Positions 1 to 29,551 of a stretch of DNA of 64,000 nucleotides are shown in pieces. The translations under genes were made by a program, and so were the position numbers. The stretch's first letter is position 1; each line of letters begins with the position of its first letter. Where the stretch lies: assembly GCF_002007105.1 (NCBI RefSeq), contig NZ_MVBC01000001.1:1-64000 (forward strand). The letters run 5' to 3'. The stretch is from Hymenobacter sp. CRA2 (GTDB lineage: Bacteria > Bacteroidota > Bacteroidia > Cytophagales > Hymenobacteraceae). The notes under the pieces are model-generated. The model had not been told where the DNA came from. It was given only the letters and a program-made list of their open reading frames with translations, and searched no databases.

Positions 1-123
<123 letters not shown>

Positions 124-26547: not shown

Positions 26548-27225
26548 TTATTGCGCCGGCCCCGGCCGCAGCAGCTGCCCGACGACCAGCCGGTTAAGCT
26601 GCTCCACCCGGTGCTCGGCAGCTTCCAGGCCTAGCTGCGCCAGCACATCGAGCAGGGGCTGTTCGTCCACGGTCAGCTCGCCCTCGGCAATGGCGTTGAA
26701 GATGACGTAGCCGCCGGGCCGCAAGCCCCGCCGCACCTGCTGCCAGAAGGCACGGCTCAGCACCTGCGGCGGCATGGCCAGGTCGATGAACAGATCGATG
26801 ATGATGAGCCCGAACTGCTCGGTGAGCTGTGACAGGTAGGCAAAAGCATCGGCCTCGATGATGCGCAACTGCGCGTCGGGCCGAATGCCGAATTCCTCGG
26901 CAGCCAGCTGTACGACTACGGGGTCCAGCTCCACGGCGGTGATGCGCCCCTGGTAGCCCAGCTCCCCGCGTAGCGTGCCAATGACCGAGCCGCCGCCCAG
27001 ACCCAGCAGCAGCGCCTGTTGCACCGGCTGCAGCCGAATTTGGCGCAGGCCGTAGCGCAGCACGCGCTGCAAGGAGCCGTAGGAGTAATTGGCGCTGCGG
27101 CTGTCCAGCACCTTGCGGCCGTTGCTCAGGGTAATTTCCAGCGGGCCATTGATGGCTGAAGCTACCCGCCGCGTGAGCGGAAACAGGTAGCTCAGGAGGC
27201 ATTGCCAGCGGGAAGGCTCGTTCAT
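26548..27225 (-). CDS. Spermidine-synthase-like SAM-dependent methyltransferase
   Basis: 225 residues with one Rossmann-fold domain. ALLLGLGGGSVIGTL is the glycine-rich SAM loop; ITAVELDPVVVQLA supplies the acidic residue that binds the ribose; IIEADAFAYL and LIIIDLFIDL follow as motifs II and III. The fold and VELDP motif place it with the spermidine-synthase-like group, but the polyamine-binding residues of true spermidine synthases are not evident, so the substrate is open. It starts 20 bp after the thioesterase gene and is probably cotranscribed with it from the transcript that carries the cobalamin riboswitch. Confidence 0.8.
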   Translation of the reverse strand: MNEPSRWQCLLSYLFPLTRRVASAINGPLEITLSNGRKVLDSRSANYSYGSLQRVLRYGLRQIRLQPVQQALLLGLGGGSVIGTLRGELGYQGRITAVELDPVVVQLAAEEFGIRPDAQLRIIEADAFAYLSQLTEQFGLIIIDLFIDLAMPPQVLSRAFWQQVRRGLRPGGYVIFNAIAEGELTVDEQPLLDVLAQLGLEAAEHRVEQLNRLVVGQLLRPGPAQ

Positions 27226-27245
27226 GCCGCCAAAGTACTCCGGGA

Positions 27246-27632
27246 TTAGAGCACCGATACCGGCACTTTGTGCTCGTCGATGGCCACGAAGGTGAACGTG
27301 CCCGACACGGCGTGCTGGCGCACGTCGGAGTACATTTCCTCGATGTGGATGTCCACCGTTACGTCCACGCTCTTGGTGCCGAGGCGCGACACACGCCCGA
27401 TCAGTTCCACGATGGTGCCGGCCGGAATGGGTATGCGGAAGTTGATGCGGTCGGAGGACACGGTGACCATGCGCTTGCGGCTGAAGCGCGTGGCGGCAAT
27501 AAAGGCCACTTCGTCCATGAGCTGCATGGCCGTGCCGCCAAAGAGCGTGTCGTAGTGGTTGGTGGTGTTGGGGAATACGGCCTTAAACAGGCGCGTTTCG
27601 GCTTGGGCAATGCGTACGTCGAGGTCCGTCAT
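27246..27632 (-). CDS. Acyl-CoA thioesterase, hotdog fold
   Basis: 128 residues of the YciA/acyl-CoA hydrolase type, cleaving acyl-CoA to free acid and CoA in the cytoplasm. The motif TRLFKAVFPNTTNHYDTLFG then GTAMQLMDEVAFIAA is the family active-site helix, with Asn26 region and Asp40. VTVSSDRINFRIPIPAG and IEEMYSDVRQHAVSGTFTFV complete the fold. The start at 27632 (MTDLDVRI) gives the normal N-terminus; the in-frame extension up to 27746 is Pro-rich and is probably leader. A cobalamin riboswitch ends 171 bp upstream on the same strand, an unusual setting for this family. Confidence 0.88.
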   Translation of the reverse strand: MTDLDVRIAQAETRLFKAVFPNTTNHYDTLFGGTAMQLMDEVAFIAATRFSRKRMVTVSSDRINFRIPIPAGTIVELIGRVSRLGTKSVDVTVDIHIEEMYSDVRQHAVSGTFTFVAIDEHKVPVSVL

Positions 27633-27803
27633 CAGGAGAAAAGAAGAAAAGTCGCGCCTGCGGAGCGGTCTTTCGTTTTCCGGAGGGGCAGTCGGGGGCA
27701 CGGCAATACGCTGCCCGGGCCCCGGCGGGGCCGGCACTGGCGGCAAGTATTCCCAATTGATCCGACGGCTGCTTCAAGTCGCGAAAGCACATGTCACGTC
27801 GTA

Positions 27804-27963
27804 GCACGGCAAGTCTCCTGGCTTGTAACGAGACTACCCGCCTTCTCACGGCCGCGAGGGCCGTAATGGCGTGGTGTGGGTAGCCCAGCGGCAGTTACTT
27901 ACAGTTGCGCGTCAGCCCGTGAGTTGCACACGGTTCCTTTTTCATCCGGACACTTTTGCGTGC
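27804..27963 (-). promoter_or_regulatory. Cobalamin (adenosylcobalamin) riboswitch
   Basis: Read on the minus strand, the conserved blocks occur in order: GGAACCGTGTGCAACTCACG, then GCTGACGCGCAACTGTAA, GCCGCTGG, GAGAAGGCGGGTAG and AAGCCAGGAGACTTGCC. These are the core of the cobalamin aptamer (usual forms: GGUGcAAuUCC, CCGCaACUGUAA, GCCACUG, GGGAAGG, AGCCaGgAGACCuGCC). P1 is formed by GCACGCAAAAGT at the 5' end and ACTTGCCGTGC at the 3' end. The first gene downstream is the thioesterase at 27246-27632. A GGCCCC/GGGGCC hairpin in the 171-nt gap could be the switching element. A promoter was not found. Confidence 0.9.
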
Positions 27964-28034
27964 CCGAAACCCTGCTACGGCAATTGCGGATGGCAAAGAA
28001 CTGCGCGCAAGGTAGCACCCCGAGCCATAATGGA

Positions 28035-28158
28035 ACGTCATTCCGAGCGCAGCCGAGGAATCTCGCGTGTTTAGTCAGGCAGTAAAATCTTCGTTGAACG
28101 AGAAGAATACTACCGGACGTCACCACGCGAGATTCCTCGGCTGCGCTCGGAATGACGT
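28035..28158. repeat. 35-bp perfect inverted repeat, REP-like
   Basis: ACGTCATTCCGAGCGCAGCC to TCTCGCGTG (28035-28069) returns as its exact complement at 28124-28158, with 54 bp between. The arm begins and ends like the palindromic intergenic repeats that recur in many bacterial genomes (GAATGAC ... CGAGGAATCTC). It lies between the cobalamin riboswitch and the 3' end of a dehydrogenase gene and could fold into a very stable hairpin. Confidence 0.8.
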
Positions 28159-28171
28159 GCTGTTTTGCTTC

Positions 28172-29551
<1,380 letters not shown>

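Follow-up and report, generated by a model that had tools for sequence, protein, structure and literature searches.

An acyl-CoA thioesterase gene as a predicted recurrent target of cobalamin riboswitches in Bacteroidota

A cobalamin riboswitch on contig NZ_MVBC01000001.1 of Hymenobacter sp. CRA2 raises the question of what it controls. In the 64,000-nucleotide stretch of DNA analyzed here (the window), it is followed by genes for a thioesterase (TE) and a methyltransferase-like protein, and the preliminary description of this DNA left two readings: either these genes belong to an undescribed B12-linked function, or the true target has been lost and the riboswitch is an orphan. Coordinates of the features discussed are collected in Table 1.

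Table 1. Features of the riboswitch-thioesterase locus, in window coordinates.
Feature	Position	Strand	Evidence
Spermidine-synthase-like methyltransferase, outside the conserved unit	26548..27225	minus	Pfam just above cut-offs
4HBT acyl-CoA thioesterase (TE), 128 aa, very probable conserved target	27246..27632	minus	PF03061 E 2e-17; riboswitch linkage
Remaining 5' leader, little conserved	27633..27770	minus	Alignment; fold z-score 0.41; no terminator recognized
P13 hairpin, loop TCGCG able to pair with loop L5; expression platform begins	27771..27788	minus	Covarying stem
Cobalamin riboswitch aptamer RF00174	27791..27989	minus	93.9 bits, E 4.5e-22, model 1-189, covariation
Promoter-like box TACCTTGC, relaxed form of the Bacteroidota -7 box TAnnTTTG	28007..28014	minus	25 nt before aptamer

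The preliminary description had placed a B12 aptamer at 27963-27804 on the minus strand and proposed an Infernal search with RF00174 as the check. The match obtained by running cmscan over the whole window (27989-27791) encloses that span, covers the full model length and, at 93.9 bits, lies well over the gathering score of 31.5. Only two matches in the whole-window Rfam 15 scan exceeded their gathering scores, RF00174 and the start of a 16S rRNA; the window edge (1-123, minus strand) is the inside of a 16S rRNA gene. The conserved structure continues past the Rfam model with a P13 stem-loop at 27788-27771. Past P13 the leaders of TE loci are little conserved, that of the window folds no better than its shuffles (z-score 0.41), and no minus-strand terminator is recognizable at the window locus. 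The one other RF00174 match in the same genome precedes a TonB-receptor-like and a beta-propeller-like ORF (translations read by eye).

Selection on the RNA was assessed with 37 aptamers from TE loci, all of them Rfam matches and three of them heading metE-TE. Over two helices, a five-pair stem and P13 (9 pairs in all, named after the alignment had been viewed), 94.8% of cells are paired and 8 of the 9 pairs show changes on both sides; on each measure, 0 of 500 shuffles came as high. P13 is the weaker helix, with 88.0% of cells paired, one pair unpaired in 12 of the 37 aptamers and another unpaired in four, with six gaps. CGCG is found in L5 of 35 and in L13 of 34 of the 37 aptamers, and in L163 and L166 the loop pair CGCG/CGCG has jointly changed to CCCG/CGGG with pairing kept. 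One aptamer (L208, which bears the label Glaciecola, a name at odds with its neighbors) has no L5-L13 match at the aligned place. Judged from this alignment, the RNA looks selected as a switch.

The first gene downstream begins 158 nt past the Rfam match. It had been described as a thioesterase, and the Pfam result agrees, with a 4HBT match (PF03061, E 2e-17) of 63.7 bits against a cut-off of 20.6. The gene has an ATG start; a longer ORF with a TTG start, reaching 27746, was rejected, the starts of orthologues giving it no support. Relatives of solved structure found by phmmer are 2gvh (E 1.5e-43), 2eis (E 1.7e-28) and HI0827 (1yli, E 1.6e-11). In the MDE motif, which may supply the catalytic acidic residue of the hotdog helix, D40 is conserved in 16 and E41 in all of 17 aligned orthologues. 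Two more specific assignments were discarded: the protein reaches 48.2 bits against a cut-off of 162 for the YciA equivalog (NF007970), and a B12-independent isozyme is not indicated, the protein matching 4HBT only and no mutase, synthase or reductase family.

Comparison of the locus across Hymenobacter genomes, another check proposed in the preliminary description, speaks for a lasting association, the riboswitch being kept with TE in every TE-bearing genome of the genus and across genera. Eight genus genomes contain 16 RF00174 matches; the 11 whose surroundings were viewed are all loci of a TonB-receptor, cobT/cobS-like or TE gene (names from translations). TE orthologues are present in five of the eight genomes (that of the window and four others at 86-92% identity), in each case behind a riboswitch. 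Another riboswitch heads a cobT/cobS-like pair in three genus members (L003, L004 and L005, named likewise), and G005 has TonB-receptor, cobT and TE riboswitches together.

The linkage extends to the family, where TE orthologues with E no higher than 4.5e-47 were found in 73 of 150 genomes. Upstream DNA was covered for all 73, by Rfam for 71 and through the coordinates of both match lists for G103 and G091. A same-strand riboswitch lies 154-238 nt before the TE match in 62 (195 nt in G103 and 187 nt in G091), and G137 reads riboswitch-metE-TE, with the riboswitch 2640 nt from TE; no upstream riboswitch was found for ten orthologues (G018, G030, G051, G074, G079, G096, G110, G114, G128 and G138). 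Surroundings of the riboswitch-TE pair vary by lineage: in the genus the pair stands between a GSDH gene on its upstream side and DedA on the other, and other lineages have several different sets. TE is the only candidate target at 13 of the 62 direct loci, six with one conserved ORF cluster and seven with another, because the next conserved ORF there lies on the opposite strand. Paralogues that are 33-43% identical served as a control. Among the matches listed, 76 paralogue rows could be set against 156 riboswitch places, 150 from the family list and six from the genus; for 58 of these rows the genome also has a riboswitch in the list, and for 18 there was none to compare. None of the 58 lies less than 5 kb from a riboswitch among the matches listed, the nearest on one contig being 19 kb away. 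With high confidence we regard TE as the conserved target of the window riboswitch. A TE-like stretch with in-frame stops, apparently a decaying copy, follows a riboswitch and metE in G039 (L359 7430-7714).

The methyltransferase gene starts 20 nt past TE and is probably read together with it in the window genome. The pairing of the two genes as a unit, as first described, did not survive the genus comparison: the methyltransferase is 3' of TE in one of five genus members only, and it was therefore rejected as a riboswitch co-target. In the other four riboswitch-TE members the next conserved ORF is DedA, ahead of which L133 has a predicted 75-aa ORF without a match. In Pfam the protein scores barely over the cut-off for each of Methyltransf_25, Spermine_synth and Methyltransf_11, and it passes the subfamily model MFS_SpdSyn (59.6 against 40); it falls short of the polyamine aminopropyltransferase equivalogs, the best of which scores 62.3 against 304 bits.

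A promoter separating the riboswitch from the thioesterase, which the preliminary description had named as counter-evidence, was not found: there is no sigma-70-type promoter in 27200-28200 and no TAnnTTTG box within the leaders of the five genus loci. Of 61 family aptamers, 21 have an exact TAnnTTTG, presumably the Bacteroidota -7 box, no more than 110 nt upstream, where mononucleotide shuffles gave 1.5 on average; in 15 of the 21 the box is 30-33 nt from the aptamer. At the window locus the relaxed form alone is present and no exact box; a relaxed box stands 25-26 nt before the aptamer in four of the five genus loci. A MITE-like inverted repeat of 44 nt, its arms 91% complementary and separated by 54 nt, occupies 28026-28167, between riboswitch and GSDH gene; its 31-nt core recurs nowhere else in the window.

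How far does the association reach beyond the family? In an order set of 291 genomes, TE was found at E 1e-28 in 102, of which 77 are outside the family; 65 of these 77 loci were read, over about 1.5 kb upstream. An nhmmer profile placed a riboswitch within 1.5 kb in three of the 65 (L149, L163 and L166), and Rfam, applied to 20 of the 65, confirmed these three and gave none in the other 17. Direct linkage is therefore rare in the rest of the order. The riboswitch stands directly before TE in G193 and G244, and a PAS gene intervenes in G247. Six more order genomes have RF00174 at 2.2-4 kb before TE. The order riboswitch-metE-TE is found in G351 and, with an additional small Cys-rich or PAS gene, in G162 and G390; G384, G370 and G392 read riboswitch-TonB receptor-TE, two of them with further uptake-type genes (G392 by tblastn only). 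When eight order loci without a known riboswitch were re-read to about 6 kb, G218, G373 and G389 proved to be riboswitch-metE-TE, and no riboswitch was found over that distance in G157, G164, G240, G290 and G359.

We have also read 80 named TE loci, which were chosen by likeness to family TEs and not by riboswitch; an upstream riboswitch is present in 47 of them, a share that does not stand for a phylum average. In 38 it lies on the same strand within about 3 kb (nhmmer profile, E below 1e-6). All 29 of these that were given to Rfam passed; the remaining nine belong to Hymenobacter and Pontibacter, and some of their genomes, at the least, are also in the family set. Nine more have an Infernal match 3.0-6.3 kb upstream (L212, L226, L246, L248, L250, L261, L264, L273 and L277), the intervening genes of L226 and L248 being annotated in part. 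L205 passed Rfam narrowly, at 33.0 bits, L224 matched the clan sister RF01482, and L279 gave a weak nhmmer match that is absent from the Rfam result. Riboswitch calls for L330-L367 are from nhmmer, with those for L351-L356, L357 and L358 agreeing with Infernal places and those for L339 (3e-9) and L347 (2e-9) weak.

The arrangements among these loci are diverse. The riboswitch precedes TE alone in Chryseobacterium, Tenacibaculum and Taibaiella koreensis, and metE and TE in Mucilaginibacter, Pedobacter, Muricauda, Niastella and Taibaiella helva. A KAS III gene is inserted between metE and TE in three Pedobacter (by Pfam for one and tblastn for the others), and a PAS gene in Echinicola and Spirosoma. 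L357, from the same genome as L212, reads riboswitch-nrdB-nrdA-TE, and in L227, L241 and L358 riboswitch and TE are accompanied by TonB receptor, DUF5074 or Peripla_BP_2 genes. A small Cys-rich gene is alongside TE behind the riboswitch in Fluviicola (L206). Two Larkinella loci (L214 and L221) have metE before TE and no riboswitch nearby.

Further genes accompany TE in this setting. A small PAS protein is encoded just before TE in L149 (1881-2504), L226 (2534-3001), L261 (2513-3004), L265 (2399-2989) and L273 (2237-2764), that of L149 being closest to LOV-type models of NCBIfam. The small Cys-rich protein, CWC-like by eye, lies shortly before TE in L206 (2673-2924), with similar ones in L329, L356 and L373; it has no NCBIfam match. 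A diphthine-ammonia-ligase-like PP-loop ATPase occurs in the riboswitch-TE operons of L236 (2194-2976, PF01902) and L374 (5822-6385, by tblastn). In L241, a DUF6580 protein (1180-1746) is encoded between the B12 riboswitch and the Peripla_BP_2 gene and TE, and is possibly a B12 uptake component.

A draw from the whole phylum gave TE at E 1e-40 in 25 of 296 genomes, and in 13 of these a riboswitch lies upstream of TE at up to about 4 kb (G000, G016, G247 and ten by nhmmer, with G492 and G745 weak). G715, one of the ten, reads riboswitch-nrdB-nrdA-TE. In G177, G577 and G738, metE or nrdA adjoins TE and no riboswitch was found; nine genomes, all of genus g121, have neither riboswitch nor metE/nrdA with TE in the 6 kb read. 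In a TE tree of 182 rows, from which alone ten named loci taken as repeats of family genomes or species were left out, riboswitch state changes at least 30 times among 179 counted rows (122 linked, 57 not); these changes are not readable as independent gains because a quick tree of 128 residues is too little for that. As riboswitch and TE remain together from genus to genus and are paired again in other orders, the earlier suggestion of an undescribed B12-linked function is strengthened, and on comparative grounds we consider that TE is a recurrent target of B12 riboswitches in Bacteroidota.

What would such control achieve? The transcript probably begins just upstream of the aptamer, if the promoter-like box is used, and would carry the riboswitch and then TE. 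Bound cobalamin would let the L5-L13 kissing loop form, and expression would fall, whether through transcription or through translation; TE would be made when B12 is scarce. In well-studied cases metE, nrdBA and btu-type genes are B12-repressed, and with this class of riboswitch and these partners TE is most likely made when B12 is short. The enzyme may then hydrolyze short acyl-CoAs (propionyl-, methylmalonyl- or branched are the candidates) and free CoA, such acyl-CoAs being expected to accumulate when AdoCbl-dependent mutases have no cofactor. Among B12-dependent enzymes, acyl-CoA mutases are those with CoA-ester substrates, and we know of no B12-free acyl-CoA mutase; an acyl-CoA drain is the simplest role for TE. 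The whole account, a B12-repressed TE relieving acyl-CoA build-up at mutases, appears to us about evenly balanced between right and wrong. The mutase-relief role of TE, taken separately, is plausible at slightly under even chances. More tentatively again, a riboswitch-controlled thioesterase could be a third response to B12 shortage beside MetE for MetH and NrdAB for NrdJ: a safety valve draining stranded acyl-CoAs, since on this reading no B12-free mutase exists.

Mutase presence fits the mutase-relief role. A PF01642 mutase-family gene was found in each of the 80 named genomes with TE, 47 of 47 riboswitch-linked and 33 of 33 others, and with both groups at 100% its co-occurrence does not discriminate. 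PF01642 also matches fused mutases of about 1130 residues, the sole kind of match in a few genomes. In the order set, with kinship ignored, the family is matched in 91 of the 102 genomes with TE and in 130 of the 189 without. An apparent split of 32/32 linked against 59/70 unlinked genomes was discarded as void, since most order loci cover 1.5 kb only and in view of G389 and the distal links. In G389, which reads riboswitch-metE-TE, PF01642 gave no match at E 1e-30, an argument against a mutase being strictly needed.

The same genome suits a different, though unlikely, role: TE may be B12-repressed for lipid remodeling or general acyl-CoA control and not for mutase relief as such, for example in handling odd-chain or branched fatty-acid precursors under B12 shortage. 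The KAS III gene between metE and TE in the three Pedobacter also points this way, as enzymes of this kind use acyl-CoA primers, but no other fatty-acid synthesis gene is seen among the Pfam-scanned genes between riboswitch and TE. A further parallel is the fatty-acid desaturase behind a B12 element reported in Kazanov 2007 (PMC2211319). Less likely still is that TE, though under B12 control, acts on a different substrate or serves a different purpose, with which the varied substrates among 4HBT relatives would be consistent. A part for TE in B12-independent methionine synthesis seems improbable: riboswitch-metE-TE, or metE adjoining TE, is found in many genera, but in the family, where riboswitch-TE is common, metE occurs in only 7 of 150 genomes, and none was found in the remaining 143 or in that of the window, so TE is not merely a helper of MetE. 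A part in cobalamin uptake or salvage, suggested by operons with TonB receptor, DUF5074 and Peripla_BP_2 genes, is just as improbable, since TE is a 4HBT thioesterase without a signal peptide visible by eye and many TE loci have no adjoining uptake gene. The orphan reading, by which loss of a btuB or metE target left TE as a bystander, is very improbable: metE loss from an arrangement like that of G137 could leave riboswitch-TE, and few TE loci of the order outside the family have a linked riboswitch, but 63 of 73 family orthologues retain the link in differing neighborhoods with similar spacing and covariation, and elsewhere TE shares metE, nrdBA and btu-type operons.

With a thioesterase target, one of the most widespread riboswitch regulons would gain a recurrent member outside its recognized classes, and an uncharacterized Bacteroidota thioesterase would have a directly testable function. 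If the safety-valve reading is true, it would explain how the CoA pool is protected when scavenged B12 runs out. The problem of the CoA pool under B12 failure is familiar from human methylmalonic acidaemia, and to our knowledge its protection on B12 loss is little described in bacteria. In our literature search, mostly of open-access main texts, no B12 riboswitch was described ahead of an acyl-CoA thioesterase gene, and an earlier mention is possible; no such link is made in the accessible portions of PMC3766115, PMC2211319, PMC9600662 and PMC8620254.

Among known thioesterases, YciA (HI0827), ACOT7/ACOT12, 2gvh and 2eis have the 4HBT family in common with TE, although TE scores far below the YciA equivalog cut-off, and we know of no B12 control for any of them. 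On the RNA side, riboswitches with metE, nrdAB and btuB targets have the same aptamer family, the L5-L13 kissing loop and the presumed off-switch in common with the window element, and these very targets share operons with TE in other Bacteroidota. The closest parallel in acyl metabolism is the desaturase, described in Kazanov 2007 (PMC2211319) as an unusual B12-element target in metagenome fragments: like TE, it is an acyl-metabolism gene behind a B12 element, and the enzyme differs. Cobalamin targets, as grouped in Sun 2013 (PMC3766115), are B12 synthesis, transport of B12 or its precursors, cobalt transport and isozymes of B12-dependent enzymes, and TE fits none of the classes named there. 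The window riboswitch differs from those with known targets in what it precedes, an acyl-CoA thioesterase instead of a transport, synthesis or isozyme gene.
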